Positions 2 through 23,161 of a DNA stretch of 50,193 nt are shown here, in pieces. A model generated the notes under the pieces. It worked only from the letters and a program-made list of their open reading frames with translations. It was not told the DNA's origin and searched no databases. The stretch is from a virus, in IMG/VR virus record IMGVR_UViG_3300044630_004832, positions 1 through 50,193 of that record, one strand, 5' to 3'. Position 1 is the stretch's first letter. Each line of letters opens with the position of its first letter. The position numbers were made by a program, and so were the translations under genes.

Positions 2-775
2 GGTTACGACGCTTACGAAATGGATGAGCAAAAGGCTGCAGACATCGGCCTTGAAGCAGAACTCAAAATCAAGCGCATGTACACCGAAACGGAACGCACT
101 GAAATGGCAAAAGAGGGCATTGCAATGTCCGACGGGTCGATGCCAATTGCAGACGCAGAAGACCTTAAAAATGCTGTTCAAGCATTCGGTCGAGCAAAAG
201 ACAAGAAAGCCGCACGCGCACACATCATGAAGCGTGCCCGCGCTCTTGCCGAAGATGGCTTGATTCCAGAAGACTGGATGAAGAACGTCAAGAAGTCATT
301 TGGCGAGAACTCTTCCGATTCTGAAAAGGCTCTTGTTGACAATGAATTCCTTGCAGATTTGATGGAGTTCCAGTTGCTTGCTGAGGAAGCAGACATTAAG
401 TCTCCTTCCGAATTGGAACAGTCAGAAAAGCGCATGTACTCAGACGAATCGCGTGAAGAAATGTCCGATTCGGGAGAAGCACTGCCTGATGGTTCCTATC
501 CGATTGCAGATGAAGCGGACCTCCGCAATGCGATTCAGGCTTATGGACGAGCAAAAGACAAAGAAGCCGCAAAGAAGCACATCATGAAACGCGCTCGCGA
601 TCTAAAACTTGAGGAACTCATCCCCGAAGAGTGGACCGCCGATGGTGGCTCCAAAGAGTACTCGGAAGATGAAATGGAAGACCCAGAAGAAAAGGCAGAC
701 GGGATTTTGGCTTCTCTCGAAGAGTTCAATTCTTTGCTTGAGGCAGAAACCAAGGCTCCTGAAGTTACCGACTGA
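2..775 (+). CDS. C-terminal part of a phage protein with two DUF6582-like repeats (probably prohead protease tail)
   Basis: The frame is open to the left edge, so the N-terminus is missing and the first ATG at 20 is probably internal. About 255 residues are seen. Two copies of a roughly 70-residue module are present, each with the order RMY, then DGS, P-I-A-D, DL(K/R)NA(V/I)QA(F/Y)GRAKDK, AA, H-I-M-K-R-A-R, IPE(D/E)W (about residues 25-95 and 137-205 counted from the ATG). This matches my memory of the DUF6582 module, often found at the C-terminus of phage prohead proteases or as a separate head-region protein. The linkers are strongly acidic. The position upstream of the capsid gene supports a head-assembly role. 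The catalytic part is not in the window, so the protease assignment is inference. Confidence 0.6.
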   Translation, partial: GYDAYEMDEQKAADIGLEAELKIKRMYTETERTEMAKEGIAMSDGSMPIADAEDLKNAVQAFGRAKDKKAARAHIMKRARALAEDGLIPEDWMKNVKKSFGENSSDSEKALVDNEFLADLMEFQLLAEEADIKSPSELEQSEKRMYSDESREEMSDSGEALPDGSYPIADEADLRNAIQAYGRAKDKEAAKKHIMKRARDLKLEELIPEEWTADGGSKEYSEDEMEDPEEKADGILASLEEFNSLLEAETKAPEVTD

Positions 776-816: not shown

Positions 817-2904
817 ATGGACACTGAGTCAGAAAAAACAGGTGATGTGTCCGAAGACGCTGAGATCAACGATTCGGAACAACACGAAGATGAAGTCATT
901 GCTGAAATTCATTCAACAATGTTTGGTCTCCCCATCAACGGAAATCAAGAACTCGTAAATTACAAAGGCCTTATCGCCCGAGGAGTTCTTCAACCATATT
1001 TCATCGAAGGCAAAGTTGGTCTCGTCGGAAGCCGTTCTCGTCTTGGACAAACAGTCCAAGGTGTCGGGTCCATCGTCCTCCCCGGAAATGTAAGTGTTGT
1101 TCGATCGCCGGTACGTTCTGCGATTGCGCGAACCCTCACTCCGGGTGGTGGCAGTGACAATAATCTTGTCGGCCGTGCTGTTAGTTCCGCGGTGGGCCGG
1201 ACGCGACGGGCAGCACGAAAAGTTCTTCGCTGTCCTGCCGGTTTCGAATATGGCGGTCGATTTGCTTCACGGAATCTTGCGAATTGTGGCCGTCAACTAT
1301 TCGACATTCCCGGCATTGGTGACGGGATAGGCGGCGGAAGCGGCCGAGGCCTAGTCGGCCTTGTCCGACGCGCTGGAGAGCAAATTGATATTGGCAACTA
1401 TGGTTTGACTGCTACGCAAATTCAACGTGCGACTCAAATCCCTCGTGTTGGAGGCAACAACTCCGGCAAGCGGAACAGGGGCGTTGTAGCGGCTGTAACC
1501 GCCTTATCGGGTAAATCGGAATCGGATGCTTTCCTAGTTCGCCAAGATGGTTTCACACTAAAACCAGTTATTGGCACTGAGATTCTGGCAACTATCCGCA
1601 AAAATCCTGATATGGATAACGGAAGTTTTGTTTCTCGGATTTCGAACACTTCGACCATCGGTCACGACTCAACCCCAATGCTTTGGATGTCAAACGCCCG
1701 ATCAGTGGTTTTTGTTACCCCCGATGGTGGCAACATCACCGTCGAACGTGCAAAAGATTTGACCATCGGCGAAAAACGCAAACTAACAAAGTTTTGGGAC
1801 TCCTCCGCTGGCACCCCTGAAAAAGAATTCGATCTTGCTAGCCGCATCCGCTCATTAGTTGATTCCTCCGAAGGTGGACTCACTTACAACGAGCGTTTCC
1901 CCAGTGTTGATAACGCAAACGACCTTGTAACTGTTTCCGAAATTGGCAAAGACAAAAGTCAGCGTTCAGTGCGGCGCTGGGTTTACGCGAACTACATGGC
2001 GGACAATGCGCCCGGACGTAACAAAAAGCGCAAGTGGAAAGAAATCGGAAAAGCCTCTACGGGATCAATCGTTCGTGACAACGAGATCACAAAACCAAAT
2101 GAAGCAACAACCTTCTTGAAAGAGAACGGCGACCCATTCGAAGTTCCACCTTCCCTGCTTGGAGACGCTCTTAATAAATCTAAAGCGTTTACGGCAACGC
2201 AACTGCAGCCCGGCGTGGAACTGCTTGAACGTGGCGATGGCAAGAAGTTCTACCGCGTCGAGTCCACGGGAACGTACTCAAATCTGAGCCATCGTGTTTC
2301 TTCTGACGTTCACTCTGTCCTCGGTCTTGAATCAGGACGAGTGGCGTTTATCGGTACTGGCGGTGACCGCTCAGTCCTTATCGAACATCCGGAGAATCTG
2401 CCGGGAGTGAAAGTGTCTCGCGATTCAATTGCAGATTCCGATGCCGAAGATCTATTACGAATTGCTGTTTCCGATTACTTGTTAGACAATCAGAAGAGAA
2501 GTCCTGCTTCTTTGCTTGCGATTCGTAAGGGTGATGCCAAAGGTGTCATCGCCGATGACAACGGGAAAGCCGCTCTTGCTGGATTGTCTACGGAAGAGTT
2601 GAAGTCACGGCGCGCTTTGGTTCTTGGCGACTATTTTAAAGTTTCGCGAAATGAGCAGATGTCGAAAAAGTTTAATGAACTTCGTGAGACTCAGCGACGC
2701 CAATTGCTGAGGGTTTACGACGGCCTTCTCGATCGAGCGAGTAAGTTTAACTTTTCTGAGTATGCGGAAAGACTGGGAGTTGACGGTGGACTTTCATCTG
2801 CCGAAAAACAGCATCTTGAGTTGATCCAAAAACTTTATTCTCAGCGGTTAGAGAACCTGCGTAGAAGCCGAAAGCAGTTTTTGCAGATTATTGGAGTGTT
2901 GTAA
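817..2904 (+). CDS. Large head-region protein with degenerate PI3K/HipA-like kinase domain
   Basis: 695 aa starting at an ATG 41 bases after the upstream stop. The N-terminus is acidic. A block around residues 125-165 reads R-C-P-A-G, G-G, N-C-G and resembles the WRC...GG...CG block of the next three large proteins. Around residues 472-585 the order matches the kinase-like domain at 13140-15485: a lysine-containing strand (KKFYRVES), a helix with LSHRVSSDVHSVLGL, then SDYLLDNQKRSPASLL and a later ADDNG. The DRHxGN and IDxx catalytic motifs of active relatives are replaced by QKRSPA and ADDN, so it looks like a pseudokinase. The C-terminus is a charged helical tail. TAATG couples it to the next gene. 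The similarity is from reading by eye; an unrelated structural role is possible. Confidence 0.5.
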   Translation: MDTESEKTGDVSEDAEINDSEQHEDEVIAEIHSTMFGLPINGNQELVNYKGLIARGVLQPYFIEGKVGLVGSRSRLGQTVQGVGSIVLPGNVSVVRSPVRSAIARTLTPGGGSDNNLVGRAVSSAVGRTRRAARKVLRCPAGFEYGGRFASRNLANCGRQLFDIPGIGDGIGGGSGRGLVGLVRRAGEQIDIGNYGLTATQIQRATQIPRVGGNNSGKRNRGVVAAVTALSGKSESDAFLVRQDGFTLKPVIGTEILATIRKNPDMDNGSFVSRISNTSTIGHDSTPMLWMSNARSVVFVTPDGGNITVERAKDLTIGEKRKLTKFWDSSAGTPEKEFDLASRIRSLVDSSEGGLTYNERFPSVDNANDLVTVSEIGKDKSQRSVRRWVYANYMADNAPGRNKKRKWKEIGKASTGSIVRDNEITKPNEATTFLKENGDPFEVPPSLLGDALNKSKAFTATQLQPGVELLERGDGKKFYRVESTGTYSNLSHRVSSDVHSVLGLESGRVAFIGTGGDRSVLIEHPENLPGVKVSRDSIADSDAEDLLRIAVSDYLLDNQKRSPASLLAIRKGDAKGVIADDNGKAALAGLSTEELKSRRALVLGDYFKVSRNEQMSKKFNELRETQRRQLLRVYDGLLDRASKFNFSEYAERLGVDGGLSSAEKQHLELIQKLYSQRLENLRRSRKQFLQIIGVL

Positions 2905-5900
2905 TGGAACAAATCATGATCATTACTGACGCTGCGACTGATAAGACTTTTGCTGTGGCAACTGAAGAAGACGGTTCGTTGCGACTGTTTGGTGTTGATT
3001 CTGCCGGACAGGAGTGGGCGGAGTGGGTTGATCAGGAAACGAAGGGCAGGGGTACTCTTAATTCGATTATCCCAACTCTTGGTTACGCGATGCGCATTGA
3101 GGGTCCGAAGCCGTTGACTCGTCAGTTGCGGTCACGTTTGGCTGACCTTCTGCCTAAGGTTCGAGATGATGTTCGGCTGGAGTTAGTTGAAGGTCGCGTA
3201 AAGGCTTCCGGTAAGAAGACTGCGGAGATCTCTCCGTCCGCAAAATATTTGCACCGCGATTTAGTTAAATCGATTGCTGCTAATCGGATTTCAGCAACGG
3301 GCTTTCATAATCGTCAAAACGTGATCAATTATAAAGCGAAGGCTTTTTTCATTGATCGTTATCACGCTTCGATGGCCTATGAGATCAAAAACGCAAATGC
3401 CATTTGGGATCCGAATCTGGGTCCGAGTGGTGGTTGGCGATGTCCGCCGGGAACACGATTTGGTGGTTATATCACCGATGAGTGGGGCCGTAATTGCGGA
3501 TTGGGGGTGACCCGTCGAATCGTTAATGCGATTACCAGCGTCGGGCAGGGTGCTACAAATTTTACTGATCGGCGCCGGGGGCGCCGCAAACCGGAGGGTT
3601 TAGGTCCTTCGTTGCGTGATTCGGCTCGTACTGGGGCTGAGTCTGTTGATGGCGAGTATGAACTGCCTGAACCGCCTGATGCGGTAGAAGGGGAGGCTCT
3701 TACTGTTGCTGATGTTGACATGGAACTTGTCGATCTTGAAGCAGGATCCCCAGAAGCGCGCAAAAATCGTCGTCGAACCAGAAGGGGCGCTCGCCAAGAA
3801 CGAGCAGACAACTTTCGAGAAGAGAGGCGTCAAAATAGTCGCTTTTATCGCTTCTTAGAAGACTTCGATGACCTTTTGGAGTACGGCGAAATTCGCTCTA
3901 ACGAAGAAAGAGATCAAGAATTAGCAGAATACAGAGAACGTCGTGGACGACCGGCGGAACAGCGACTTAGAGATTTGGCGGACAGGCTTGATCTCGGATG
4001 GGGCAGACGAGATGAAGACGAAGAGGAGCAACCTCAGCAGTCGCCTCGTCCTAGGGGGCGTGAGCGTTCCGTAGTCGACCCCGAGACAGGCGCAGTAACT
4101 ATCTTGGCTAGGTCACAAGAACCGTTAACAGCCGCTTATAGTGACCTCCGTGAAGAGTACTCAAATGACCCTGTAGCCCTTCGCCGTATCCGCGAATCAG
4201 AGAAGGGAGCCGAAACGATTGCAGAAAGTCGACGCAAACGAGATCAATTAGAACTAGATCAAATTGAGGATGGGTCGTTTGCAGCGAAAGTTTCTAACGG
4301 AGAGATCCCTCCGGCCGTTGATGGAGAGATCGATGATGACGGGGTAAGCGATCGGACTTCAGAAATCTTCGTTATAACTAAAATTCAACGATTGCGTGAA
4401 GCCGCTGATCGTTTAACGGAATCCGCTGAAGAGTTCTCGGAGAACTTGACTCGTAGTTCTTTGACGGAAAAAATTAAAAATGCTCGGGCGTTATATGATC
4501 TAGATGAAACTCAACGCCGTATCGCAAATTTGGCTGAGTGGCTGGAGCGAAGGGGAATAGATGATGTCGATTCAGTTCCTCCGGATATCACTTTGGGGGC
4601 TTTGTTTGATGGCGTTAAGCACGATATGTGGAAGCAGGAACAAGATGCTTCATTGTTTGAGTACACCCGAGAATTGGGTGAGGGAATCACTAGAGGTCTG
4701 AATGAGCCTGAGATTTACGATGAGTTGATTGACAAACTTAATAAAAGAATTGCTGATCTTGATGACAGGGTTAACAATAAAAACGAACCTTGGAATAGCC
4801 GAGTTGCTGCACAGGCTGAAAAAAACGGTCTTGCAAAAGTCCTTTTCGAAACGGAACGACATAAGGAGATGTCTCGTCAAGGTCGCATTCGCTTGGGTGA
4901 GATAGAGGCCGAAGAGGCTGGTGGTCTTTCTGCTGCTCAAAGGCAAGGACTTAAAACTAGGCGCGCCCGCACGAGAGAGATGTATGATCGGGAATTCGAA
5001 GCGCTGAAAACCTCGACTAGAGGTTTGGCTTATTTAAGTCGAGTTATCACCGACTATGAAGTTGATCAAGAAAACGCTTTGGCGGCATCTAAAGAACCTA
5101 TTTATAGTGATTTCGGTCGTGAGGCTTCTAAAGTTGACTACGAAGAAGTCGGCAGGCAGATAGAACGGCTTAAAGCCCTTTACGCTGAATTTGAAGCCGC
5201 GGGCGTAGATGTGCACGTTAGGCCGATTGTTGCTGACCCCGCTATTGATGATGAAATTTCCGAGGCAAAGAAACTGACTGATTTCGATGATCTTCGAAAA
5301 GAATTTGAAAAAGTTCCTGAAGAAATTGAAACAGAATTAAACATTTTCCCCGATTTGGAGAGGGCTGCCGAGTTCAGGGCGGAAATTGAATCTGAACAGG
5401 CTCAACTTGAACACTTGATGCGTGAATACGCGGAAAGCGATAATCCTAGAAACACTTTTCGTCAAGCGGCTTTGTATGCTGCTGACAGTCGTGACGTTAA
5501 TTTGGATTCCGGGCGTCTTTTGAATGATCCCGGTCTTTTGTTGATTGCTGAATATTATGATGGTCTTGCTCGCAAGTATCAGGCTCTTTCGGATTTTGCT
5601 CAGAATCGCGATCCGGATTCGGAAGTTGATGTGTCGCCTACTCGCGATTTTCCTAATGCTCCCGTTTTGCTTGAAGATGAGCGAGGAGCGTATGAGCGTC
5701 TGATTCCAGCCATTGAAAGTCGGGTTGAAGAGGATGCTGTTAATGCGGAAACTGCGGCTGCCCAGTCTTGGGAAAGTCGGCCTGAACCGGTCGCCGCGAA
5801 TAACGCAGCGTTCGCATCCTTAGAGCGCGCAGCACGATCCATGGAAAGAGAAGCCGATCTTTTAGTAGAGCGTATTTCTCGTATCATGGCCGGTGAAGTC

Positions 5901-7010
5901 CTGAGTCAGAATGAGGAAGCCGGTCTTTGGCGAACTGTTCGTCGATTTATTCCCGAATTCAATGCCGAAGATCTTGGCATTAGCGTTTCAGCGTCCCTTG
6001 GTCTTGAAATAGCACGTCTGAAAAGGGAGGCTGCAGCAAGACTTGTCGAATCAATGATTCCGTATTCCACGATTCCTGACATGAGTGCACGAGAACTTAT
6101 TGCTGCTCGGGCCAAATTCGTTAAGCGTTATTCGGATCAGTCTAGACGGCGTCGTAAACTGCTTCGCGGGTATGTGACTGATAATTATGGAAGCACTCGT
6201 CCTTGGTTGCGTTTCGACGTATCAGATTTTCTTGACACCGGCGCGACGCCGGGTGATGACGATTGGGACGATCAGAGAAGCCAAGCCATTTACTGGGCGG
6301 AATCGATGTTTACGATTGAAGAGTTTGAAGGTCGAGATGGCGTTTGGTTTAAAACTGGTTCTTTGAATGTCGGTTATGGTGGGGACGGCATCGAAGTTGA
6401 TGGCGCCATTTTTGCAAAGGATGGCGAGGATGGAGACTGGGAACAAGTAGGAAAATTTGACCGAACTATTACTACAGATCAGGTCAGCAATAACTCGATG
6501 TTCCTTGGCCCATCAGCGGGTTTTCACTCTGACCTTGCACAAAAAGTCCGCAATAAAGGTTTTCAAGGTGTCTTCAACCCGCACACTTGGTTGTGGGCTG
6601 ATGCGGCTGGAATTTCAAGGGTTTACGTTTCGGCTACGACGGATGGGCCTTACGTTTGGGGTCGTGTTGGATTCCGAACTGGGGCTTACGAGTTCGACGA
6701 CATTAAGGATGCCTTGAAAGGTGCGCTGCGCGAATATGAGCGAGGCACTGAAATGGATGGGATTATCCGTACAGATTTGGATGCGAATATGATTCGCTAT
6801 CTTCTGCATATTGCCGACATTCAGGGTGGAGATGCGTGGGGATTGCCTGAATTCATTGTTGCTACTTCTGATTATTATGGTTTAGATCCACAAGAGTTGC
6901 GTGCACGGGAAGCGTTCGTCAAGAGTTGGTGGATGAGCCATGTCCCATTTTCTAGTGGCGAGATAGAGTTTAGTGATGAGTATTTTGCCGACATGTATGA
7001 CATCGTTTGA
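2904..7010 (+). CDS. Giant head-region protein with shared WRC/GG/CG block and C-terminal GNAT-like acetyltransferase domain
   Basis: 1368 aa, start codon overlapping the previous stop (TAATG). Residues 1-50 resemble the small proteins encoded at 12815 and 15488 (a pattern like DGSLRLFGV), suggesting a small gene fused at the 5' end. Around residues 165-205 lies the block AIWDPNLGPSGGWRC, FGGY, NCG shared with the 1823- and 781-aa proteins. The long middle is charged and probably coiled coil. Around residues 1180-1265 the order VGKFDRTITTD, MFLGPSAG, KGFQGVFN, GISRVYVSA, GPYVWGRVGF resembles the GNAT-fold domain seen in actinobacterial polymorphic toxins, which ends in GGYAWARxGF. Acetyl-CoA-dependent modification of a host target would follow if it is active. 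The domain call is from memory of the pattern. Confidence 0.5.
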   Translation: MEQIMIITDAATDKTFAVATEEDGSLRLFGVDSAGQEWAEWVDQETKGRGTLNSIIPTLGYAMRIEGPKPLTRQLRSRLADLLPKVRDDVRLELVEGRVKASGKKTAEISPSAKYLHRDLVKSIAANRISATGFHNRQNVINYKAKAFFIDRYHASMAYEIKNANAIWDPNLGPSGGWRCPPGTRFGGYITDEWGRNCGLGVTRRIVNAITSVGQGATNFTDRRRGRRKPEGLGPSLRDSARTGAESVDGEYELPEPPDAVEGEALTVADVDMELVDLEAGSPEARKNRRRTRRGARQERADNFREERRQNSRFYRFLEDFDDLLEYGEIRSNEERDQELAEYRERRGRPAEQRLRDLADRLDLGWGRRDEDEEEQPQQSPRPRGRERSVVDPETGAVTILARSQEPLTAAYSDLREEYSNDPVALRRIRESEKGAETIAESRRKRDQLELDQIEDGSFAAKVSNGEIPPAVDGEIDDDGVSDRTSEIFVITKIQRLREAADRLTESAEEFSENLTRSSLTEKIKNARALYDLDETQRRIANLAEWLERRGIDDVDSVPPDITLGALFDGVKHDMWKQEQDASLFEYTRELGEGITRGLNEPEIYDELIDKLNKRIADLDDRVNNKNEPWNSRVAAQAEKNGLAKVLFETERHKEMSRQGRIRLGEIEAEEAGGLSAAQRQGLKTRRARTREMYDREFEALKTSTRGLAYLSRVITDYEVDQENALAASKEPIYSDFGREASKVDYEEVGRQIERLKALYAEFEAAGVDVHVRPIVADPAIDDEISEAKKLTDFDDLRKEFEKVPEEIETELNIFPDLERAAEFRAEIESEQAQLEHLMREYAESDNPRNTFRQAALYAADSRDVNLDSGRLLNDPGLLLIAEYYDGLARKYQALSDFAQNRDPDSEVDVSPTRDFPNAPVLLEDERGAYERLIPAIESRVEEDAVNAETAAAQSWESRPEPVAANNAAFASLERAARSMEREADLLVERISRIMAGEVLSQNEEAGLWRTVRRFIPEFNAEDLGISVSASLGLEIARLKREAAARLVESMIPYSTIPDMSARELIAARAKFVKRYSDQSRRRRKLLRGYVTDNYGSTRPWLRFDVSDFLDTGATPGDDDWDDQRSQAIYWAESMFTIEEFEGRDGVWFKTGSLNVGYGGDGIEVDGAIFAKDGEDGDWEQVGKFDRTITTDQVSNNSMFLGPSAGFHSDLAQKVRNKGFQGVFNPHTWLWADAAGISRVYVSATTDGPYVWGRVGFRTGAYEFDDIKDALKGALREYERGTEMDGIIRTDLDANMIRYLLHIADIQGGDAWGLPEFIVATSDYYGLDPQELRAREAFVKSWWMSHVPFSSGEIEFSDEYFADMYDIV

Positions 7011-7024
7011 TTTGAGGTTTTTTG

Positions 7025-7336
7025 ATGTTGTCTAAAAAAGAAACAGACTACGTTCGCGGTAAGTTCTTAACCGACATTACGGACTCAGATAAAAGGTCCA
7101 AGATTCTTTTTGTTGCCGACGCGCTTGCAAGCGAAATCGACAAAGACGATAACTACTATGACGTTTACTGGTCAATAGTCGGATATTTCCTTGACCCCAA
7201 AAATGACCAAGATCTAGAAAAAGACTTCAAAGATTTAGGCGGAAGCCTCACAATCGCCCCATTTGATACCCCTTACGAAGAATACCCACCGGGTATGCTT
7301 GATCAACCGGATCACGTTTTCAAATTCCCGAAATGA
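7025..7336 (+). CDS. Small acidic protein following the GNAT-domain giant
   Basis: 103 aa from the ATG at 7025, preceded by GAGG at 7014-7017. A TTG three bases earlier is a less likely start. The protein is acidic with a Tyr/Asp-rich centre (DDNYYDVYWSIVGYF) and a Pro-rich tail. No family is recognised. It lies 14 bases after a giant gene and 7 bases before the next one, the same position as the small genes at 12815 and 15488, although its sequence does not resemble them. A partner, chaperone or neutralising protein for the preceding large protein is possible, but nothing in the sequence shows this. Confidence 0.6.
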   Translation: MLSKKETDYVRGKFLTDITDSDKRSKILFVADALASEIDKDDNYYDVYWSIVGYFLDPKNDQDLEKDFKDLGGSLTIAPFDTPYEEYPPGMLDQPDHVFKFPK

Positions 7337-7343
7337 TGTGTGA

Positions 7344-10300
7344 ATGCATCGCAAAAGTTTTGTTGAACCCAAACTTGGGGTCACGGATCGCCCAATCGAT
7401 CGGCGCAATCCGCAACTTTGGCGATCATCAATTGAATACAAAGCACTCAGGTTTCGCCGCTCCAGCCGCCTAGCCACACTATCCTACGACATAAAATCAG
7501 GCGCAGCCGAATGGGACCCAAACCTCGGACCAAGCGGAGGTTGGCGATGCCGCACTGGAACTGAATTTGGTGGCTACATCACCGACCGGTGGGGACGAGG
7601 CTGTGGAGTCGGAGTATTTCGGCGACTCGTAAACACAATCGGTGGAGCAAACCGAAATAGAGCCGACTCTAAACCCAACCGTCGACGCGCTGCCCGTGAC
7701 GCCCGCTCTGGCGCCAGAAGGCTTCGGAGAATCGCGCAAGACAGAAACAACCTAGGCTCTCCCCCTCTCGGCATGGCAGCGAGCCGCGGAGAAGAGCCGG
7801 AGCAACCCCAAGACCAGCCGTGGGCAATCGAAGGGTTCCTGAATCGACTAGCGGATCTGCTTGCCCCAAACCCCAGAGGCGAAGGGCAGTCTCCGAGAAG
7901 GAACCGTAGACGTCAAGACATCGAAGACGCCGCCACATCACTGCCTCGTCCTGCCGTAGACCGTCCAGCAGACGAACCGCTACTCACTCCTGAGCCACGA
8001 ACCCGAACAAGACAGCCTCTCATAGATCCAGACAATGTTGACTGGGATCCCACAAAATGGCAAGCCATCCGCCAAGCCTATTTCGACGAGAGGGACCGGA
8101 TCATTTCAACATGGGGTACTCGCCTTGGTCTTGACGATGGAGTGGAACCGTCTATCGTGGCTGTTGACGCTTATGTTGCTGAACGACGAGAAACTGGACG
8201 AAATGCCGGTTATGTAGCGCGGTTAGAGAATGCTGCCAATGCATGGCGCACGATGTACACGCCCCCTTCACGCTTCACGATGGACGACATGGTTCGTCAA
8301 CTCAACGAGTTGAACCCTCGACGTGGCCGAGCCATTTTGGCAAACGCAGAAGAAATCGAAGCCCTTATTCGCAACGATGTTTCAGAATCGGACACGCCTG
8401 AGCCTGATCTTCCGGATGGAGATATTCCTGAGGCAGCAGTTTCGGTTCCTCAAGATGATGACTCTGAGGAGGGAGTTGCCGTTGAAGAACGCAAGCCCTT
8501 TGCGGAATTAGAGGAAATCAGAGAGGATGCTGTTGATTCTCCAAAAATGGAGAAAGCGCGAAACATTGTTAAACGGGTAAAAAAACAGTGGCGAAAATTA
8601 GATCGCGATCTCGATGAACGAATCGGCGACCCACAGTTGGGTCGTACAAGAACTTTGCTCTCTCGTCTGCGACGCATTCGTACTGATTCAATAAACGAGT
8701 ACGAGACGGGCAAGTTTGATTCACCTGAGGACGCGGTTGCTCCGGCGTATGTAGCGCAAAACCTTGAGCAGATAATTGCAGAAATAGATAAAATTATTGC
8801 GGCGATTGATCATGAATTGCCGGAGAATGTGGACGATATTGACGTTGAAAGTCTCATCGACCCGGATGCCTCATGGCGCAACACCGCTCGGCGGTGGCTA
8901 GAGGAAACGGAACTTGACACCGACGTTGTTCAAAGGCTTTTAGAGCAGTTATCTGCAGTCAGGGATTTGTTACAAAGAGTTGATGATGACGATGAGAAAG
9001 ACTTCGCCGAAGGTCGATTTAAAATACTTGAAAACATTAAAGAACTGTCTGACAGAAATGGCGTCATGATAATGTTTTCTCGCATTTTCCCAATGCCGGG
9101 TGGTGATCGGGGAGATCGACTGAACCCCCCAGCCTTGCAAGACATTTTCCACAAATTGGCAAATGATCGACAACGAAATTTCGAGAAACGGGTTTCGTTT
9201 CTCAAATCTTTGCTTGCCGAGTTATCTGCACAGGACCGAAAAATTGAAGAAGGGGACTGGAGTCCAAGAAACAATCTTTTCGTTGGTGACCCCCGCATCT
9301 CGTTGTCTCAATGGGAGGCGCACAGGGACCCCAGTGATCCCGATTACGCAGAATTGGCATTAGACCCCATTAATGATGCCGAGAAAGACATCGTCAGCGA
9401 CTTCAACAGGGCTATCGAGAGGGACGATGTAACTGCACTCCGAGACGTGGCTTCAAGAATTTGGGGGCTTGTCGGTGGGATTTCCGCTTGGCTCGACCGA
9501 GAGGAAGCAGACATAGATGGTCGCGGCGAAGAAAGTGCGCCACTGTATTCAATAAATGCCAGACGGCGATTTGAACAATTAGAATTCCTTGCCGAAATCC
9601 TTGAACGTATCGCAGACTTGGGTATACATAACGGACGGGATGAACGCCCACTTAACGAACGATCCTCGGCTATCAATGTTGATGACATTCGACAGAAGGT
9701 GAAGTTTCTTCGTGGCGGCTTAGTTACGGACCCGGGCGGCGATAAGTATCCAAGCGAAGTTATTTCGCCTGTACCGGAGATTCCTCGACTTCAGGAACTT
9801 GACTACCCATCGATAATGGATAGCAAATATGTTCGCGATCGGGAAAATTTTAAAACTCGTCTTCAAGAATCTTTTGATCGTGATTCTGATTTGGCTCGCC
9901 AGTTGGGCCAGTTTGGTGAAATCGACCGGGATGACATCGAGGGGATGCAAAGAAATCTTGACATCCTTACCCGTAGGGTTCAGTCGCGAATCAGCATGAT
10001 TACGGAGCCGGATATCCCTGAACTTGAAGAAGTTTGGGAATTCGAATATGCTAGTTATGAAGACCGAATTTACGCTGGATTACGTCTAAAGAGACTGCAA
10101 GCGATCAGAACGCAAATGCTGCGTGACGCTGTGCGTCTTGAAGAAGCAATTATTGAAGAACGTCAACGGGCTGGGGCAGATGCCCCCGCAATCCCAAACC
10201 TTCCGGAAATCTCTAACGACGTCGCTGAAACACTTGAAAAGATAAGTGACACTGAAATTCGCAAGTGGGCTAAGTCAATGCTCGGCGACATCGATCAGGA

Positions 10301-12815
10301 ATATGATCGTGAGGTCATTCCCAGTTTGGATACTCGGGGTCTTGATGAATTTGCTTATGTTTTAGGTTCCATTGATGAAGAAATTTGGACATTAGAGAAT
10401 GAACTTGTAAGAAAAAATGAAGACGGCAAAATAGCAAATCTATTACTTATTCAAAAACTGCAAGAAAAACAAGACAAAATAGAAAATTTGCTGGAGATAC
10501 GTCGAAACGAATTAAGTTCTTTCATTGACATCAAAGGTCTGAATCGGCAAATAGGGGAAAACTGGTCGGAAAGTGATATGGACTTGTTTCTAACTCTTTA
10601 TGAAGCAAGCGTTCATAGAGCAGGGCAAGCGGATGACGTTGATATTCCAGAGGATGATCTTGAACTTTTTCTTCTTGAGTTGAAACGTCATCATGCTGAC
10701 ACCAAGAACCGATATAGGTCTCGTTTGCCGCGAGCATTAGTTTTTCAAAATGATTGGGAAGAACTAACTGAAGATGTTGAAAAGCAAATCGAAGTAGAAG
10801 AATCAAAAGTGGGTGATGAAAGTCTGCTTTTGCTTGAACGTGCGGTTGCTTTTACTAAACTTCAGTCGCTGTTAGAAACAAAACGATATTTAGATGCATT
10901 CGCTAACAAGTGGTTGATTACCGATGATGACTTGCGGGCTAATCCTCCGGGCGACACTGACAGCCTGTTGAAAAAGGCTGTTGCATCATTGAGGGCACAA
11001 GGTTTTTCTTTGGATGACATCAGGCTTGACTCCGCCTTTGGAAGTTATGATGGCGCGCCTGTAAATAGGGTGCGTGGCATGCTGACTGTGGCGAATGACC
11101 AAGAGAGTTGGATGCAAGTCTCTCTCTCTATTGCAAGAACTATTCGAGACGCAGACGAGAGCATTCGTCAGGTCGTCGAAGAAGTACCTCACTACAATCA
11201 CTCCCGGCAAACATTAGCGTATCGGCAAATGATTATTGCTAAAACCCTCATTACGGAATCAGCGATTAAGCAAGAACTAGAAAAAATAATTGAAGAAACA
11301 CCCGAAATTTTGGACTTGACCTCACTAGCACCTCGACATGTCGAACCGTCAATTGCGCCACAACCAAATCGAGATGGAGATCGTCGAGGCAAACGATTCG
11401 TAGATAGAGTGCTTCGGCCTTTCAAGGGTTTCTATCCGCAAAGACGAAATCGTATGCGCGGTCAAATCGCTCATCGCGATGGAAGTCCGCGCAACATCGA
11501 GAACCCAGATATTACGGATGTTGAATCCGCTATCGATCATTTGCGACGAGGCGGCAGTTTGGACGAAGTCCCCAACAGATATTGGCTTGTCGCTATTGAC
11601 GCGAACTCAAGTGATGAAATTTTCGATAAATCAACTCGCTTTTACAAGAAACAAAAAATAGGTGGAATTATTGGGGAAACCTTGATCTACCTTGCTCGTG
11701 ACGATAATGGTGGGGCCGTCGAACAGGGTTGGGTCTTCAAAACAACATGGGATTACGGTAATGACGCACCCGTAAATGAACTTTCCGCAGTCATTGGAAC
11801 CTATTTTCTTCACGAATTAGGTCTTCCCGTCGAAGGTGGGGGCTGGGATGGAGTTCTAACAACACCTGACGACAATCCGTTTACAGCATCGTCCCGAGCC
11901 TTTTTCGTTCAACCGTACGTTGGGAATGCACTATCCGTTTCTCCACGCCCATTTGTCGCTTCAGACGTCATGGGAGGCGGAAGCAATTTTTCTGAAAGAC
12001 TTCTGAGGGTGGCTGTTCCCGATCCGAGTCGCTACGACGCTCAGGCTCCTGTTGGTTCTCTAATGTCCAGATTTCAGGCAAGGGGTCTATTGGGTCAGTA
12101 TTGGCCGGGATGGTCGGCCCGACTTGTCAACTATTTTTCGTCAGCAATGCTTGGTCTTTCGGATCGGCATTCTGGTAATGCAGTTTCTTTTATGACTGCG
12201 GATGGACCTGTGGTAATCCCAATCGATCTTGATTCGACCGGTAATATTGACGTCATAGGTTGGATGACTTACGTTCCAATGATGAACATGGAGCACGGCT
12301 CCGGAAACGGCTTTGCGGAAGGACCGGGAACTTTTGTCGATGACGCGACTAGAGATTTTGGGTTAGGTCTTGAAGTGGCTTGGCGGACCATTCAACTTGC
12401 TGACGAAATGCTCGATAACGCGGAAAAAATGATGGATATGGACCCGGACGAGTTTGCTCGAAAAATGCTTGAAGGGTTTTCAACATCAACAGATGGCGTT
12501 GTAGAAAACGCTGAACAGAGAGCGCGCTCAACGCTTGCTGACCTTCGGCTTACTTATATGAATCTGAAAGCAGACCGCTCCAATTTTTTGGCGGGCTTAC
12601 TTCGAAGGGCACTTCAAAATGCGCCATATGAATCCAGTGAAAAAAACGCATTGATTGAAGATTTAGTGGCTAACTATGAAGAGGCTAAATTTTACGAGTG
12701 GCCTGTCGATATAACGGGTATTAGTGAAGACGAGATATCGCAAGGTCCGATGATATGGTTGAGGCTTGCGGTTGAATTAAAAGAAATCCATGATCGAAAC
12801 GCTAGGGGGGTTTGA
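7344..12815 (+). CDS. Giant head-region protein with C-terminal PI3K/HipA-like kinase domain
   Basis: 1823 aa. The N-terminal 90 residues carry the shared module: KALRFRR, LSYDIKSGAAEWDPN, GPSGGWRC, FGGYITDRWGRGCG. A basic, Pro-rich linker follows, then more than 1000 residues rich in Glu, Asp, Arg and Leu that look helical or coiled coil. The last 360 residues resemble a kinase of the PI3K/HipA type: VFKTTW with Lys about 1466, an NELSAVIGTYFLHELGLP helix with a Glu partner, LSDRHSGN at about 1605-1612 (catalytic loop) and PIDLDS at about 1627-1632 (metal-binding Asp). All key residues are present, so phosphotransfer or nucleotidyl transfer is plausible. The substrate is unknown. It shares the TGATG junction with the next small gene. 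Confidence 0.55.
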   Translation: MHRKSFVEPKLGVTDRPIDRRNPQLWRSSIEYKALRFRRSSRLATLSYDIKSGAAEWDPNLGPSGGWRCRTGTEFGGYITDRWGRGCGVGVFRRLVNTIGGANRNRADSKPNRRRAARDARSGARRLRRIAQDRNNLGSPPLGMAASRGEEPEQPQDQPWAIEGFLNRLADLLAPNPRGEGQSPRRNRRRQDIEDAATSLPRPAVDRPADEPLLTPEPRTRTRQPLIDPDNVDWDPTKWQAIRQAYFDERDRIISTWGTRLGLDDGVEPSIVAVDAYVAERRETGRNAGYVARLENAANAWRTMYTPPSRFTMDDMVRQLNELNPRRGRAILANAEEIEALIRNDVSESDTPEPDLPDGDIPEAAVSVPQDDDSEEGVAVEERKPFAELEEIREDAVDSPKMEKARNIVKRVKKQWRKLDRDLDERIGDPQLGRTRTLLSRLRRIRTDSINEYETGKFDSPEDAVAPAYVAQNLEQIIAEIDKIIAAIDHELPENVDDIDVESLIDPDASWRNTARRWLEETELDTDVVQRLLEQLSAVRDLLQRVDDDDEKDFAEGRFKILENIKELSDRNGVMIMFSRIFPMPGGDRGDRLNPPALQDIFHKLANDRQRNFEKRVSFLKSLLAELSAQDRKIEEGDWSPRNNLFVGDPRISLSQWEAHRDPSDPDYAELALDPINDAEKDIVSDFNRAIERDDVTALRDVASRIWGLVGGISAWLDREEADIDGRGEESAPLYSINARRRFEQLEFLAEILERIADLGIHNGRDERPLNERSSAINVDDIRQKVKFLRGGLVTDPGGDKYPSEVISPVPEIPRLQELDYPSIMDSKYVRDRENFKTRLQESFDRDSDLARQLGQFGEIDRDDIEGMQRNLDILTRRVQSRISMITEPDIPELEEVWEFEYASYEDRIYAGLRLKRLQAIRTQMLRDAVRLEEAIIEERQRAGADAPAIPNLPEISNDVAETLEKISDTEIRKWAKSMLGDIDQEYDREVIPSLDTRGLDEFAYVLGSIDEEIWTLENELVRKNEDGKIANLLLIQKLQEKQDKIENLLEIRRNELSSFIDIKGLNRQIGENWSESDMDLFLTLYEASVHRAGQADDVDIPEDDLELFLLELKRHHADTKNRYRSRLPRALVFQNDWEELTEDVEKQIEVEESKVGDESLLLLERAVAFTKLQSLLETKRYLDAFANKWLITDDDLRANPPGDTDSLLKKAVASLRAQGFSLDDIRLDSAFGSYDGAPVNRVRGMLTVANDQESWMQVSLSIARTIRDADESIRQVVEEVPHYNHSRQTLAYRQMIIAKTLITESAIKQELEKIIEETPEILDLTSLAPRHVEPSIAPQPNRDGDRRGKRFVDRVLRPFKGFYPQRRNRMRGQIAHRDGSPRNIENPDITDVESAIDHLRRGGSLDEVPNRYWLVAIDANSSDEIFDKSTRFYKKQKIGGIIGETLIYLARDDNGGAVEQGWVFKTTWDYGNDAPVNELSAVIGTYFLHELGLPVEGGGWDGVLTTPDDNPFTASSRAFFVQPYVGNALSVSPRPFVASDVMGGGSNFSERLLRVAVPDPSRYDAQAPVGSLMSRFQARGLLGQYWPGWSARLVNYFSSAMLGLSDRHSGNAVSFMTADGPVVIPIDLDSTGNIDVIGWMTYVPMMNMEHGSGNGFAEGPGTFVDDATRDFGLGLEVAWRTIQLADEMLDNAEKMMDMDPDEFARKMLEGFSTSTDGVVENAEQRARSTLADLRLTYMNLKADRSNFLAGLLRRALQNAPYESSEKNALIEDLVANYEEAKFYEWPVDITGISEDEISQGPMIWLRLAVELKEIHDRNARGV

Positions 12816-13135
12816 TGGCTAAAGAGTTTGCAGTTTTTAAAAGGTTCACTGGAATCCTTGCGGATAACACGGAGCCAGTTGGTTTGATCGTCTTAAACGA
12901 TGACAAAATTGAAATCTACGGGGTGGTACGAAAATGGAAGAATCAATGGGTTCCCTACTTTGAAAACTCCACATTTGAGCGACACTTAACAACAGCAAGT
13001 CCGTTGTCAAGCATTTTTGCCGCGCCATATGGAGCGCCAAGCGTCTACCCCATTTCAGATCAATACAAGTGGATTCTTGATTCAACGAAACAAAAGATGA
13101 CCGGCAAGGTCATAAAAATCACTTTAAAGAAATAG
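12815..13135 (+). CDS. Small partner-type protein after the 1823-aa kinase-like giant
   Basis: 106 aa; the ATG overlaps the previous stop (TGATG), so translation is probably coupled. The segment PVGLIVLNDDKIEIYGVVRKW resembles PAGVLIDGDNLEVWGIF in the protein at 15488 and DGSLRLFGV at the N-terminus of the 1368-aa protein, so the three probably share a small beta-rich domain. No known family is recognised. The repeated arrangement of a large gene followed by this domain suggests a cognate partner (chaperone, loading factor or inhibitor), which is inference. Confidence 0.6.
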   Translation: MAKEFAVFKRFTGILADNTEPVGLIVLNDDKIEIYGVVRKWKNQWVPYFENSTFERHLTTASPLSSIFAAPYGAPSVYPISDQYKWILDSTKQKMTGKVIKITLKK

Positions 13136-13139
13136 TTTG

Positions 13140-15485
13140 ATGCTTACCAAACCTTTTGCTCCAACTTCCAAGAAACAGCAGTATGCGACAGTTCGCATTG
13201 TTAATAATTCCGTTTCCGATTGGCAAAATACTGTAAATTTCAAGGCCCTTCAATTTCGCAGGGCGAGAGAAATTTCAAGCATTAAATATGATTTGAAAAA
13301 CAATAATGCCATTTGGGATCCGAACGTTGGCCCGAATGGTGGTTGGCGTTGCGGCACCGATCTGACTGGAGGCGGAGAGTTTACGGACAGATACGGCCGA
13401 GGCTGTGGCGGGCGAGTTCGTCGCCTTCTTGGCGCCATAGGCGGAGCAGTCCAAACAGGGCTTCCCGGTCGTATCGGAAAGAACCCAAAGCGAGTCGCCG
13501 AAACTGTGACAAGAGAAGTTGAAGTTGCCGTGGAGCGAGACCGAAGTCAAACCGCTCAATGGTGGGAAGCGTTCTCGCCAGAGAAGCCCAAGTGGTTGAA
13601 GGTCCACGAAAACATTATGCGAAGCATTCAGGGGGATGTTCAGCCAACGTCACGCAAGATTCGACAAGCGATTTCTGCAATTGAGTCGAATTTGGATTCG
13701 GTAAACAAAATCCTGAAGAGTGGAAAACTGGCACCCAAAGAAGAGAATATTCAAAAGATCAGAGGGGACATTTACGGGGACGATTTGCTTTACCTCGAAA
13801 GTCTTCTCGATGAGGCGTATGAAAATGAATTACGCACGAATCGGGCTACGGGTGTGGCGTTGAGTCGTCTAGGGAAAGATGGCGAGCAGGAGCGGGCTAT
13901 CGCTTTGGTTAAGGCAAATACGGATGCATGGCGTCTGCAGGTTGAAGACTCAATTGCCAATGGGACTCTTCAGCAACTGTCTGACATGCTGAAACAATTG
14001 ACTCGCGAATCAGCAGGTCAGTTTAAGATTCAAACAGATCAAGAAGCAGATCGATTCGACAGGGCCGTTGCGACAGCAATGGTCCAGTTTTTTAATAAAA
14101 GAATTACTGCCGTGCAGGAAGCCGCGGCGCTTAGGGAAAAAGCATTAAAAAGGCGGCAGTCAATTCTTGATAGGGTCAAAGCGGCGGCGCGTACAAAAAC
14201 TAAACTCGGGCGCCTTGACCCATCCGTAGAAGCGTGGCTTGCAGACCCTATCGTGGCGGCGGATTATCTGCGATCTTCAGTTTCGGCAAAAGTTTCTCGC
14301 CGGGGAAATCTTGCGGCTATTCCAGATGAAGTTTTAATTGAGGCAATGATCGGACGCGATACGGTTGTTGAAGAAGTCGGGAAAGGCACAGGCGGAGGCA
14401 TTCCAATTCCTCGCATTCGGGTTGATGACCCAATAGAAGTAGAAGACATTCTTACTTCGGATGCTGGCGGATTTCCGGTCGGAACGAAGTTATCAAATCC
14501 AAGATTCGACTTTGAATTAATCAAAAACAATGCTCAACGACAACTCTGGACAGTTTGGAAAGTTGTTGATAAAGACACAGGCGAAATGTATTTTCTTAAG
14601 GGTTCTAACATGAGTGCTAACGAAGCAATTGCTGAAATTGCTGGTGCCGAGATTGCCGGATTAATTGGATTTCCTCGCGACGAAAAGTTTGGTGGAATCA
14701 GGGTCGACAAGCGGCGAACGTCTAGTTCAGAAAAACGCGCTGCCCGGTGGGTGATTTCTCGACACGTTGGCCATTATCAGCCTGACGCCTTGCGCGGCGA
14801 GCGGCTTGAGGACTTCAAAAGCGCTGCGCGTGTAGTTAGGGAGGGTGGCTCAAATGTCACTTTTGTTGAGACTCGGCCCGGGGATAGGAGTACCCGAACG
14901 GATGTTCTGGACCTTGGCCCTGAAGAGACCGCAAAGATAACTTTGCTTGACTATTTGGTAGATAACCACGACCGTCATTTTGGAAATTTCTTTATTTACA
15001 ATGACACTGATGGAGTTCCAAGAATTGCTCCAATCGATCACGGCATTGTTACTGGAGGCGAGGTTGATAGAGGATTGTCGACAGTGGTTTCCGCTGATCA
15101 GTTGGCAGAGGATGCCGCTTACAGGTCGTCTTTAACACCATTTGATTTTGGGCTAAATGTTATGCATCCAGTTTTCAATTATGTTCATGTTAAGTCGTCT
15201 GACCGGATTGCTTATTTGGACGCAATTCAAGAGTTAGTTGACACTCTTAGCGAGGCGGGCATTGATGATCTTTTATCTCCGGAGCGACTTTCAAGCAAGG
15301 GGATGAGGTTGTCCTCTACCGAGAAAGCCCATTTAGCGGCAATTGCTGAAGTCGCTAAAGCGAGGTTAACTATGTTGAAAACTAAGGGTCCGAGGTTGAT
15401 GATTAAGCCATTTCAAAATCGAATTGAAACTGATATCTCTGCCGCTGATGTGGCTTCCCGGGCTGTTACTCGGAGGGACAGGTAA
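13140..15485 (+). CDS. Head-region protein with shared N-terminal module and intact PI3K/HipA-like kinase domain
   Basis: 781 aa from the ATG at 13140 (a TTG lies just upstream). The N-terminus has the shared module: FKALQFRRAREISSIKYDLK, NAIWDPN, GPNGGWRC, GGGEFTDRYGRGCG. A helical charged middle follows. The C-terminal half has kinase features in order: an MYFLKG strand with Lys about 487, a helix ANEAIAEIAGAEIAGLIGF with Glu residues, LVDNHDRHFGNF with DRHFGN about 611-616 and PIDHG about 631-635. These correspond to the catalytic loop and metal-binding motif of PI3K/HipA-like kinases and their actinobacterial relatives. It is the best preserved of the three kinase-like domains here. The substrate is unknown; delivery into the host as a virion protein is inferred from its position. 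Confidence 0.6.
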   Translation: MLTKPFAPTSKKQQYATVRIVNNSVSDWQNTVNFKALQFRRAREISSIKYDLKNNNAIWDPNVGPNGGWRCGTDLTGGGEFTDRYGRGCGGRVRRLLGAIGGAVQTGLPGRIGKNPKRVAETVTREVEVAVERDRSQTAQWWEAFSPEKPKWLKVHENIMRSIQGDVQPTSRKIRQAISAIESNLDSVNKILKSGKLAPKEENIQKIRGDIYGDDLLYLESLLDEAYENELRTNRATGVALSRLGKDGEQERAIALVKANTDAWRLQVEDSIANGTLQQLSDMLKQLTRESAGQFKIQTDQEADRFDRAVATAMVQFFNKRITAVQEAAALREKALKRRQSILDRVKAAARTKTKLGRLDPSVEAWLADPIVAADYLRSSVSAKVSRRGNLAAIPDEVLIEAMIGRDTVVEEVGKGTGGGIPIPRIRVDDPIEVEDILTSDAGGFPVGTKLSNPRFDFELIKNNAQRQLWTVWKVVDKDTGEMYFLKGSNMSANEAIAEIAGAEIAGLIGFPRDEKFGGIRVDKRRTSSSEKRAARWVISRHVGHYQPDALRGERLEDFKSAARVVREGGSNVTFVETRPGDRSTRTDVLDLGPEETAKITLLDYLVDNHDRHFGNFFIYNDTDGVPRIAPIDHGIVTGGEVDRGLSTVVSADQLAEDAAYRSSLTPFDFGLNVMHPVFNYVHVKSSDRIAYLDAIQELVDTLSEAGIDDLLSPERLSSKGMRLSSTEKAHLAAIAEVAKARLTMLKTKGPRLMIKPFQNRIETDISAADVASRAVTRRDR

Positions 15486-15487
15486 GC

Positions 15488-15847
15488 ATGGCTAAGCGTT
15501 ATTTGGTCCTTGAGAATCTTAATAAACTGGCAGACGACCCCGATCGGTATCCAGCCGGAGTTCTTATTGATGGCGATAATCTGGAAGTTTGGGGGATTTT
15601 CAAGACCTATCTTCTTCGTGGTGGCGGCTTTAATGCTTCCTACGCAAAACTTTTTGTTGAGGCTCGTGAAGCCGAATGGGCATTGACTGACCTAAGTCAA
15701 GTCATGTCATATCAGGACATGCCCAACAAAAAAGAATCACTTCTTTTAGAAGTTGAAGCAGAGGAAGAGGAAATGTCTGCAATTCGTGATCTGGTCCCTA
15801 AAGCCGAGAGAGTAAGATTAAAAAACCCCTATGGCCGCGACAACTAA
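15488..15847 (+). CDS. Small partner-type protein after the 781-aa kinase-like protein
   Basis: 119 aa, ATG two bases after the previous stop. The segment YPAGVLIDGDNLEVWGIFKTY resembles the core of the small protein at 12815, and both start MAK. The C-terminal third is acidic and helical (EVEAEEEEMSAI). Its last 17 bases overlap the start of the next gene. No known family is recognised. Its position directly behind a kinase-like gene supports a large/small gene pairing, but the function is unknown. Confidence 0.6.
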   Translation: MAKRYLVLENLNKLADDPDRYPAGVLIDGDNLEVWGIFKTYLLRGGGFNASYAKLFVEAREAEWALTDLSQVMSYQDMPNKKESLLLEVEAEEEEMSAIRDLVPKAERVRLKNPYGRDN

Positions 15848-16673: not shown

Positions 16674-17987
16674 ATGTCGTTTGACGAGAGTCGCCTGCGG
16701 GAACTTCAGGGTGCCCTGCGGGAAAAGATGGCCAGCAACAAGGAGATCGCTGACTCCTTCCGCGTAGAGGGCGGCACCGTTATGGTGTCGACCGAGCAGA
16801 AGAGCGCGTTCGACAAGAACATGGCCGACATCAAAGAGATCAAGTCCCTTATCGATGGCATGGAAAACATGCGTTCGATCGAAGACTGGGGCGTTCAGGC
16901 CCCCGTCGAGTCGCTTGCAGCCGCTGTGGCCGCTGGCGAATCGCTTGGTCGCTATTCATCCACCAAGAGCCTTGGCTCAATGTTCCTTGAATCAGCAGAG
17001 TTCAAGTCTCTTGATGGTGGCCGTAATGGAGCCAACATGCCCTCCCCGTTCACCCTCAGCCGAGGCGACGTCACCGGCATGTGGAACCAAAAGGATATCT
17101 TCTCGGCACTGCCGTCAGGTACCCCGGGTTCCTTCGGCACCATTGAGCGCGATCCGATCGTGGTTCCGCCAATGCGTACCCGTCGCGTCCGTGACCTGTT
17201 CCCGACTCGTACCACCACCGCTGCGGTGATTGAGTACTTCCAGATGACGGGCTTCACGAACAACGCTTCGTCGGTCGCCGAGCGCAACCCCGGCAACACC
17301 GCGTTCCAGACCAAGCCACAGTCGTCCTTCACCTTCACGGGTCAACAGGCTCCGATTCGTACGCTTGCCCACTGGGAAGCAGCGCATCGCAATGTTCTCG
17401 CTGACGAACCGCAGTTGCGTTCGATCATCGACAACGAACTGCTTTACGGCCTTCGTCTTCAGGAAGACGCCCAGATCCTCAATGGTGATGGTATTGGTGA
17501 AAACCTCACCGGTATTCTTCAGACCTCTGGTGTTCAGCAGTACTCATGGTCCAGCGGTGCAACGCTTCCGGTTCCGGACACCAAGGCTGATGCGATCCGT
17601 CGTGCAGCCACTCTCTCGTTCCTTGCTTACTACGAGCCAACCGGCGTCGTCGTGCATCCGAACGATTGGGAAGACATCGAACTGACCAAGAACGATCAAG
17701 GCACCTACCTCATGGCAGTGTCCATGCAGATGGGTTCCGAGGCTCGTATCTGGCGTATGCCAATCGTCGACACCCCGGCCATCACCGAGGGCAAGGCTCT
17801 TGTTGGTGCGTTCGGTACTGGCGCTCAACTGTACGACCGCGAGCAGGCTTCGATTCGAATCAGCGAACAGCATTCGGACTTCTTTGTCCGCAACGCAATC
17901 GTGATTCTTGCCGAGCAGCGCCTCGCCCTTGCGGTGAAGCGTCCAGAGTCGTTCGTCGAAGTTACCTTCAACAACGCTCCTGCCTGA
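16674..17987 (+). CDS. HK97-fold major capsid protein
   Basis: 437 aa. Residues 1-60 are helical and charged, like the scaffolding delta domain. The rest reads as a phage_capsid family protein: an N-arm, VPPMRTRRVRDLFPT, EYFQMTGF, PQSSFTFTGQQAPIRTLAHWEAAHRNVLADEPQLRSII (given here in parts: the E-loop/spine helix region), then LLYGLRLQEDAQILNGDG, the P-domain feature GVVVHPNDWEDIELTK, IVDTPAI and a DREQASIRISEQHSDFF A-domain strand. This forms the icosahedral shell. Codon choice is richer in C-ending codons than in its neighbours, as expected for a highly expressed gene. It has a strong ribosome binding site and its own terminator. The prohead protease usually precedes it directly; here about 15.7 kb intervenes. 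Confidence 0.93.
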   Translation: MSFDESRLRELQGALREKMASNKEIADSFRVEGGTVMVSTEQKSAFDKNMADIKEIKSLIDGMENMRSIEDWGVQAPVESLAAAVAAGESLGRYSSTKSLGSMFLESAEFKSLDGGRNGANMPSPFTLSRGDVTGMWNQKDIFSALPSGTPGSFGTIERDPIVVPPMRTRRVRDLFPTRTTTAAVIEYFQMTGFTNNASSVAERNPGNTAFQTKPQSSFTFTGQQAPIRTLAHWEAAHRNVLADEPQLRSIIDNELLYGLRLQEDAQILNGDGIGENLTGILQTSGVQQYSWSSGATLPVPDTKADAIRRAATLSFLAYYEPTGVVVHPNDWEDIELTKNDQGTYLMAVSMQMGSEARIWRMPIVDTPAITEGKALVGAFGTGAQLYDREQASIRISEQHSDFFVRNAIVILAEQRLALAVKRPESFVEVTFNNAPA

Positions 17988-22662: not shown

Positions 22663-23157
22663 ATGATTACTAACATGCAAAACGCACTCACCACATCCGA
22701 CATGGTCACAGTCCCCGTCATTAGGAATATCAGGGAATCTAAAAATCTCTGCCTTGACTTTGACGCCGTACTCACCGCAGGGCCATCCCTCCGAGAAGTT
22801 AACTGGGGTCACCCCAATCACACCGTCATTGAATTCGACGACGTATGTGACCCAATGGACAATGCGCCACAAATGACCCACATCGAAAAAATCGTTGACT
22901 TTTCGATTGCCTCAAACTCCAAGCGAACGCTAATCCATTGCCACGCAGGCATGTGTCGTTCAACTGCCTCCGGAATCATCTTTCTCCTTACCCATGGAGT
23001 AGACGCCGAATTGGCCGTATCGACGCTCGCTTCAATTCACCCCGAAGAACGCACTTTCTGTCCGAATCCACAAATGATCAAACTTGCAAGCACATTCTTC
23101 GATTTGCCGGAATTGTCCGAAATCGTCGATTCCCACATCTACATCCCCAGCAGGTGA
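22663..23157 (+). CDS. Dual-specificity protein phosphatase-like protein
   Basis: 164 aa. LIHCHAGMCRSTAS at residues 90-103 holds the Cys-based phosphatase P-loop HCxxGxxRS, with nucleophile C93 and R99. The upstream VIEFDDVCDPMDN region can supply the general acid Asp. After the P-loop come the helices typical of this fold (ASGIIFLLTHGVDAELAVSTL in parts). It would remove phosphate from protein Tyr/Ser/Thr or another phosphoester. The stop lies 4 bases before the deacetylase-fold gene, so the two are probably co-translated. It could oppose the kinase-like domains at 7344-15485, which is inference. Confidence 0.82.
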   Translation: MITNMQNALTTSDMVTVPVIRNIRESKNLCLDFDAVLTAGPSLREVNWGHPNHTVIEFDDVCDPMDNAPQMTHIEKIVDFSIASNSKRTLIHCHAGMCRSTASGIIFLLTHGVDAELAVSTLASIHPEERTFCPNPQMIKLASTFFDLPELSEIVDSHIYIPSR

Positions 23158-23161
23158 TCAA

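Follow-up and report, generated by a model that had tools for sequence, protein, structure and literature searches.

Introduction

The best analogues of the proteins considered here are the MuF polymorphic toxins, the polyvalent proteins of phages, and Alt of phage T4 together with Dar of phage P1. In the MuF toxins, which belong to temperate phages, a small open reading frame (ORF) lies directly downstream in 89.4% (PMC5576092), and the P1 protein DarB reaches some 2000 amino acids (aa) (PMC12810830, PMC9024508). The Gratiaviridae, for their part, have HipA kinases between the portal and capsid genes, for which superinfection immunity has been proposed (PMC8008677). It is with these systems that we compare an island of four large genes, A to D, in an uncultured virus record of 50.2 kb (IMGVR_UViG_3300044630_004832, positions 1 to 50,193; this whole stretch is called the window below).

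The island lies between the gene of an acidic repeat protein and those of a DUF3721/DUF5824 protein and the capsid, and each of its four products bears a block with two cysteines, here also called the tag. The family formed by this tag, its restriction to the head module, the exchange of the C-termini attached to it, and the coupling of small partner genes to those C-terminal domains are described below. They make it probable, in our view, that the island is a head-module array of tagged polymorphic effectors, which would be packaged and ejected, with a small gene restraining each C-terminus.

The tag and its place in the head module

The four genes (695–1823 aa) occupy the place given for them in a preliminary description of this DNA, and their ORF positions agree with it:

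2..775 (+): acidic protein, 3′ part only, with two DUF6743-like repeats; its counterpart in relatives comes after the S78 protease gene and before the block genes
817..2904 (+): gene A, 695 aa, block and HipA/PI4K-fold pseudokinase; conserved across related loci
1225..1311 (+): two-cysteine block of A, Cys139 and Cys157; modelled as disordered (pLDDT <50)
2904..7010 (+): gene B, 1368 aa, with an N-terminal domain, block, charged linker and GNAT-like C-terminus
3405..3500 (+): two-cysteine block of B, Cys180 and Cys198
6048..7007 (+): GNAT-like C-terminal domain of B, common to 22 other viral loci
7022..7336 (+): small partner of B, 104 aa, family p0
7344..12815 (+): gene C, 1823 aa, with block, long charged middle and HipA/PI3K-like kinase (K1466, DRHSGN, PID)
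7512..7607 (+): two-cysteine block of C, Cys69 and Cys87
12812..13135 (+): small partner of C, 107 aa, whose start overlaps the end of C
13137..15485 (+): gene D, 782 aa, block and HipA/PI3K-like kinase (K488, NHDRHFGN, PIDHG)
13314..13409 (+): two-cysteine block of D, Cys72 and Cys90
15488..15847 (+): small partner of D, 119 aa
15831..16529 (+): DUF3721/DUF5824 protein, the last of the island ahead of the capsid gene, as in relatives
16674..17987 (+): major capsid protein, HK97-fold

Proteins A, B, C and D contain exactly two cysteines each, both within the block and 18 residues apart. The preliminary description had seen an N-terminal cysteine block in all four, in a looser form in A, and this is borne out: the blocks of B, C and D align with one another far above chance (pairwise E 1e-28, 2e-18 and 5e-19), whereas inside the window the block of A gives E values of 0.002 against B, 0.025 against C and 3.2 against D, and it is placed in the family by an external profile. 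This profile, built from the A blocks of other contigs only, finds A at E 2e-22 (72.6 bits) and scores B, C and D at 11.2, 10.7 and 6.4 bits, for a chance level of 7.9 bits, the best of 4000 shuffles; as D falls under that best shuffle, it is tied to A solely via B and C. Profiles of the B block and of a further type, the N block, recover A blocks in many genomes (E 1e-7 to 1e-3).

Scans for close relatives with the window proteins or with single blocks found none, and for this reason alignments of blocks were used for the searches. The contigs searched are fragmentary and, with identical sequences removed, still redundant in part; ORF starts were called mechanically. The block family comprises three types (A, B and N, the last with the pattern RCPPGTPxANQFTD...C) and is almost confined to viral contigs, where the A-type block occurs in 231 stretches and the N-type block in 283. 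Of 176 distinct block proteins, from sets that were picked by a motif containing the first cysteine and not the second, 175 show the spacing of 18, and no further cysteine is present in 50 of the 56 complete B-type proteins, despite a mean length of 1400 aa. Among 84,980 bacterial and archaeal genomes there was one true match, in a Phycisphaerae bin (a 12-kb contig), and a second that is marginal; tblastn, with the thresholds applied, found no block in 50,697 records of cultured phages, and the block is covered by no Pfam, PHROG or NCBIfam family. No open-access paper describing the two-cysteine tag or its small partners was found, and a set of putatively head-loaded effectors of this kind looks previously undescribed. 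AlphaFold2 places the block of gene A in a stretch modelled with low confidence, and the segment is probably flexible, to judge by the model.

The gene order across about 100 related loci, some of which have or show only part of it, is portal with MuF, S78 protease, acidic protein, N-type gene, small protein, A, zero to three B-type genes, DUF3721 and capsid; the portal carries MuF as a fusion (PF04860 + PF04233), and the S78 prohead protease corresponds to PF04586. In 20 whole records (50–172 kb), every block of a genome, up to five in number, lies in one head-module interval, and none outside it. The ORF at 2-775, formerly read as the tail of the protease, cannot be kept as such in the light of this order, where the protein after the S78 protease is a distinct one, acidic and with repeats; in the window the gene of the protease lies upstream, beyond the contig edge.

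An alternative to packaging is that the effectors stay in the producing cell, where late-expressed kinases and acyltransferases would exclude rival phages or reshape the cell before lysis, the partners limiting self-damage. The same kinase superfamily, at the same gene position, is so interpreted in the Gratiaviridae (PMC8008677), and packaging is putative in the present data. We nevertheless regard it as unlikely, as it leaves unexplained both a common cysteine tag that is restricted to the head module across the A, N and B types, and the existence elsewhere of portal and minor capsid proteins with such kinase folds attached.

Among cultured phages, those of Brevibacterium, Gordonia and Streptomyces have the closest capsids. 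In the Gordonia phages whose capsids are related, VIP2-like ADP-ribosyltransferases and very large proteins occupy the same interval, and the Streptomyces phage Gilgamesh has there a protein of about 4600 aa; by analogy, the Gordonia ADP-ribosyltransferases would count in favour of effectors that are packaged. Beside these, the DUF3721 protein (window 15831-16529; L012:14367-16931), whose length differs widely among relatives, has a cysteine pair of its own, CNSSHQDENGMWMPC, and may be another tagged family.

The C-terminal domains

Behind the tag, the C-termini of the block family vary, and comprise HipA/PI3K-like kinases, a pseudokinase, a GNAT-like fold, an exonuclease and a zincin motif. 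The enzyme-like tails proposed at the outset for the four window proteins hold for the pseudokinase fold of A and for the kinase of D, which Pfam and PDB matches support, and for the kinase of C by motif, while the GNAT-like tail of B has only weak structural matches (Foldseek E 0.017 and up).

Gene A has the HipA/PI4K/CtkA fold (Foldseek E 1e-4), from which the catalytic DRHxxN is gone; as neither a DRH nor a D.H..N pattern is kept in any of its 43 homologues, the gene codes for a pseudokinase. Structural relatives of its fold are found in other phages fused to portal, minor capsid and ADP-ribosyltransferase proteins. Gene D matches PI3_PI4_kinase (Pfam, 1e-5) and, by profile, the class III PI3K structures in PDB (1e-3), and it retains the full catalytic set of the HipA/PI3K superfamily (K488, NHDRHFGN, PIDHG); by its sequence it is a PI3K/HipA kinase. 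Gene C falls into another kinase subgroup, marked by DRHxxN and PID; it has the lysine K1466, and PIDLD where IDxG is expected, and its PDB profile matches are to PI4K and weak. The C-terminus of B has no Pfam and no PDB profile match; mostly GNATs stand among the top Foldseek matches of its model, the best of them at an E of only 0.017. Elsewhere in the window, a histone-deacetylase-family enzyme (23084-24034, +; PF00850, E 8e-23) is kept in relatives, which deserves mention given a GNAT-like head protein.

It might be supposed that these products are structural, as an internal scaffold, head decoration or fibre, in which the enzyme-like folds would be rigid modules and the small ORFs folding chaperones. 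This would suit the pseudokinase state of gene A in all homologues, the long charged linkers, and the annotation of neighbouring proteins in cultured relatives as minor tail, head fibre or virion structural proteins; but the C- and D-type kinases retain their active-site residues, and the C-termini are swapped wholesale with the partner, unlike structural genes, and we consider such a role quite improbable.

The N-type proteins of relatives carry RNase_T exonuclease, KTSC and HExxH motifs, with HExxH and RNase_T combined in one polypeptide, and comparison of the HExxH region with PDB gave no match; window proteins A to D have one recognisable domain each. On the minus strand of the window (40594-48132) there is, moreover, a 2512-aa protein with no cysteine, an RNase_T exonuclease and a DUF3626 domain, segments of which match the N-type block proteins of relatives in a changed order (E 2e-43), so that N-type domains seem, from these alignments, to have been relocated there without the block.

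A third C-terminal class (L031:11770-18159 and 11 similar proteins) shows R..G.GG..G.GEYF (also written R..GxG..GxGEYF) and NRSA motifs, always with partner p1. That it might be an ADP-ribosyltransferase received no support from a PDB profile search and is left as a guess. A protein of 2426 aa (L048:11793-19073, also L118:4484-11764) has matches to the GNAT-like domain of B as well as to the kinase region of C, which suggests a gene fusion.

Exchange of domains together with small partners

The logic of a constant N-terminus with variable C-termini at a fixed place in the head module, which the preliminary description had put forward, is strongly supported by the related loci and by one exchange of domains. 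The tag region is common to all 1953 pairs of B-type proteins and the C-terminus to 490, and 421 pairs combine a tag identity of at least 60% with no similarity at the C-terminus. In loci L106 and L113, a DNA identity of 84% ends inside the gene (L106:5753, L113:3909) and restarts, at 86%, about 10–15 bases short of the partner ORF's end (L106:7540, L113:6149); read from these sequences, the C-terminal kinase and its partner have been swapped as one unit between flanks that are 84–86% identical.

The small partners themselves had been overlooked, and their coupling to the domains is the best evidence for a polymorphic-effector logic. An ORF of 60–160 aa begins within 40 bp downstream of all 57 B-type genes and of 37 of 50 N-type genes, compared with 1 of 68 A-type genes and 101 of 338 other large genes. 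Partners are similar in 86 of the 204 pairs with similar C-termini, as against 3 of 1021 with dissimilar ones (permutation p < 0.001), each domain having its partner family: GNAT-like domains go with p0 (12/12) and the third class with p1 (10/10). Where the kinases are close (E<1e-60), the partners are similar in 23 of 24 pairs, and where they are unrelated, in none of 184; a tag identity of at least 80%, by contrast, predicts similar partners poorly (12 of 37). The partner family thus tracks the C-terminal domain and not the tag. Comparison of the partner family profiles with one another did not unify them, nor could an antitoxin domain be recognised in the partners.

In the window, gene A lacks a partner of its own. 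Relatives without B genes have, after A, a stand-alone protein whose homologue is the N-terminal domain of B (hhalign probability 98.6, E 1e-15), as if the partner of A had been fused to B as its N-terminal domain.

Exchangeable cassettes with small partners look like toxin–antitoxin or defence islands, and selfish or host-defence cassettes could merely have landed in a permissive spot between the protease and capsid genes. This we hold to be highly improbable: the cassettes form, in frame, the C-termini of tagged proteins, and tag and position are kept over deeply diverged contigs. A greater claim on our attention has a variant compatible with packaging, in which the partner would be not an inhibitor but a domain-specific chaperone or adaptor, holding the C-terminus unfolded for packaging and ejection. 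The partner is indeed small, translationally coupled and domain-specific, and fusion of the partner of A to the next protein is odd for an immunity protein; however, chaperones of delivered effectors usually accompany the targeting part, and those here accompany the enzyme domain, while gene A cuts both ways, as a pseudokinase needs no immunity. It is a possibility, although a doubtful one.

Proposed mechanism

Under the reading of packaged effectors, each block gene product would have three parts: a constant tag (two cysteines 18 residues apart, probably flexible), a long linker and, at the C-terminus, an enzyme domain open to exchange. The constant N-terminus would be a trafficking module, and the tag would most likely draw the protein into the prohead, where portal-MuF, S78 protease and capsid assemble; the protein would then ride with the DNA and be ejected into the next host, whose proteins would be modified, at an early stage of infection, by the kinases and the GNAT-like domain. 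The downstream small gene would most likely be the cognate inhibitor of its C-terminal domain, so that the producing cell, or assembly, would be protected up to the packaging of the effector, and the pseudokinase of gene A, as the invariant member, may serve as a structural or regulatory anchor. The earlier proposal, a tag for packaging or delivery and tails that target the host, would fit with all this.

Packaging, ejection, enzyme activity, host targets and inhibition by the partners are what we infer from these arrangements, delivery being the main uncertainty and the choice between inhibitor and chaperone the second. Several points weigh against the scheme: (i) the presence of the block proteins in virions is a prediction from genes; (ii) the tag, predicted to be disordered, gives no clue to its binding partner; (iii) the kinase assignment of C draws on motifs and relatives, and the GNAT assignment of B on a weak structural match to a model; (iv) the partners, given the lack of a recognisable antitoxin domain, could be chaperones; (v) and finally, the usual rationale for polymorphic toxins, competition among lysogens, is not obviously applicable, because no tyrosine integrase was found in the 20 records, some of them fragments (serine integrases were not searched for). 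That the block is a true head-loading signal, by which lytic phages would bear a hitherto unrecognised class of polymorphic effectors in their virions, up to five packed per particle, with domain and dedicated inhibitor swapped as a cassette, is a claim to which we give equal weight for and against.

If the scheme is true, a widespread group of uncultured phages would load its heads with swappable kinases and transferases by means of a short recognisable tag, the cargo of virions would be predictable from sequence, and a compact head-targeting signal would be gained. Likewise, cassettes in the style of toxin and immunity would serve phages without a detected integrase too, and HipA/PI3K-like kinases would be among the earliest proteins that the host cell encounters.

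Other features of the window

Many large proteins contain a second repeated tag (YDPxARDGDGDGIVQEGTxWERPxGT or DGDGDGF..GxDGxDNIP), which looks like another shared linker or targeting motif: it occurs in the window at residues 24, 691 and 1947 of the 2512-aa protein (40594-48132, −) and at residue 32 of the product of 24054-26774, and also in loci L060, L198, L012 and L089. Two phage tRNA genes are present, tRNA-Gln (32354-32429, +) and tRNA-Lys (36674-36746, −).

Comparison with known systems

The proposed mode, here a prediction from genes, resembles that of T4 Alt and P1 Dar in that a protein is held in the head and ejected with the DNA (PMC12810830, PMC9024508). No sequence relation was found between these and the block proteins. 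To our knowledge, neither domain-specific partners nor C-terminal exchange are known for Alt or Dar.

With the polyvalent proteins (PMC5512222) the island shares large multidomain phage proteins, a predicted injection, and the themes of kinase, GNAT, zincin and ADP-ribosyltransferase, although the kinases are of HipA/PI3K type here and form a truncated Ser/Thr group there, and no description of this tag or of domain-specific small partners was found in that work. The HipA kinases of the Gratiaviridae (PMC8008677) agree in kinase superfamily and in gene position, but there the kinase is single, and neither a shared tag nor a partner is reported. HipA/HipT with HipB/HipS, in turn, have in common with the island the kinase fold and a small adjacent protein; unlike them, the kinase here is fused to a long tagged protein, and the partners are not recognisably HipB or HipS.

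The MuF toxins offer the same head-associated conserved N-terminus, variable C-terminal domain, small downstream ORF (all B-type genes here) and location among head genes. They differ in that the tag of the island is the two-cysteine block, with MuF placed on the portal of relatives and no MuF match (PF04233) in the block proteins; in that up to five tagged genes stand in tandem per genome, with kinase and GNAT-like domains, in proteins of about 700–2800 aa; and in that theirs are temperate phages, whereas here the records examined yielded no tyrosine integrase, serine integrases being outside the search. A constant N-terminus with exchangeable C-termini, and a downstream small gene that follows the C-terminal domain, are what characterizes polymorphic toxins and are found here as well; by that analogy, a toxicity of the C-termini, neutralised by the small gene, is putative. 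In architecture, the island matches polymorphic toxin–immunity cassettes, with a new tag other than MuF and with no integrase detected in the phages.
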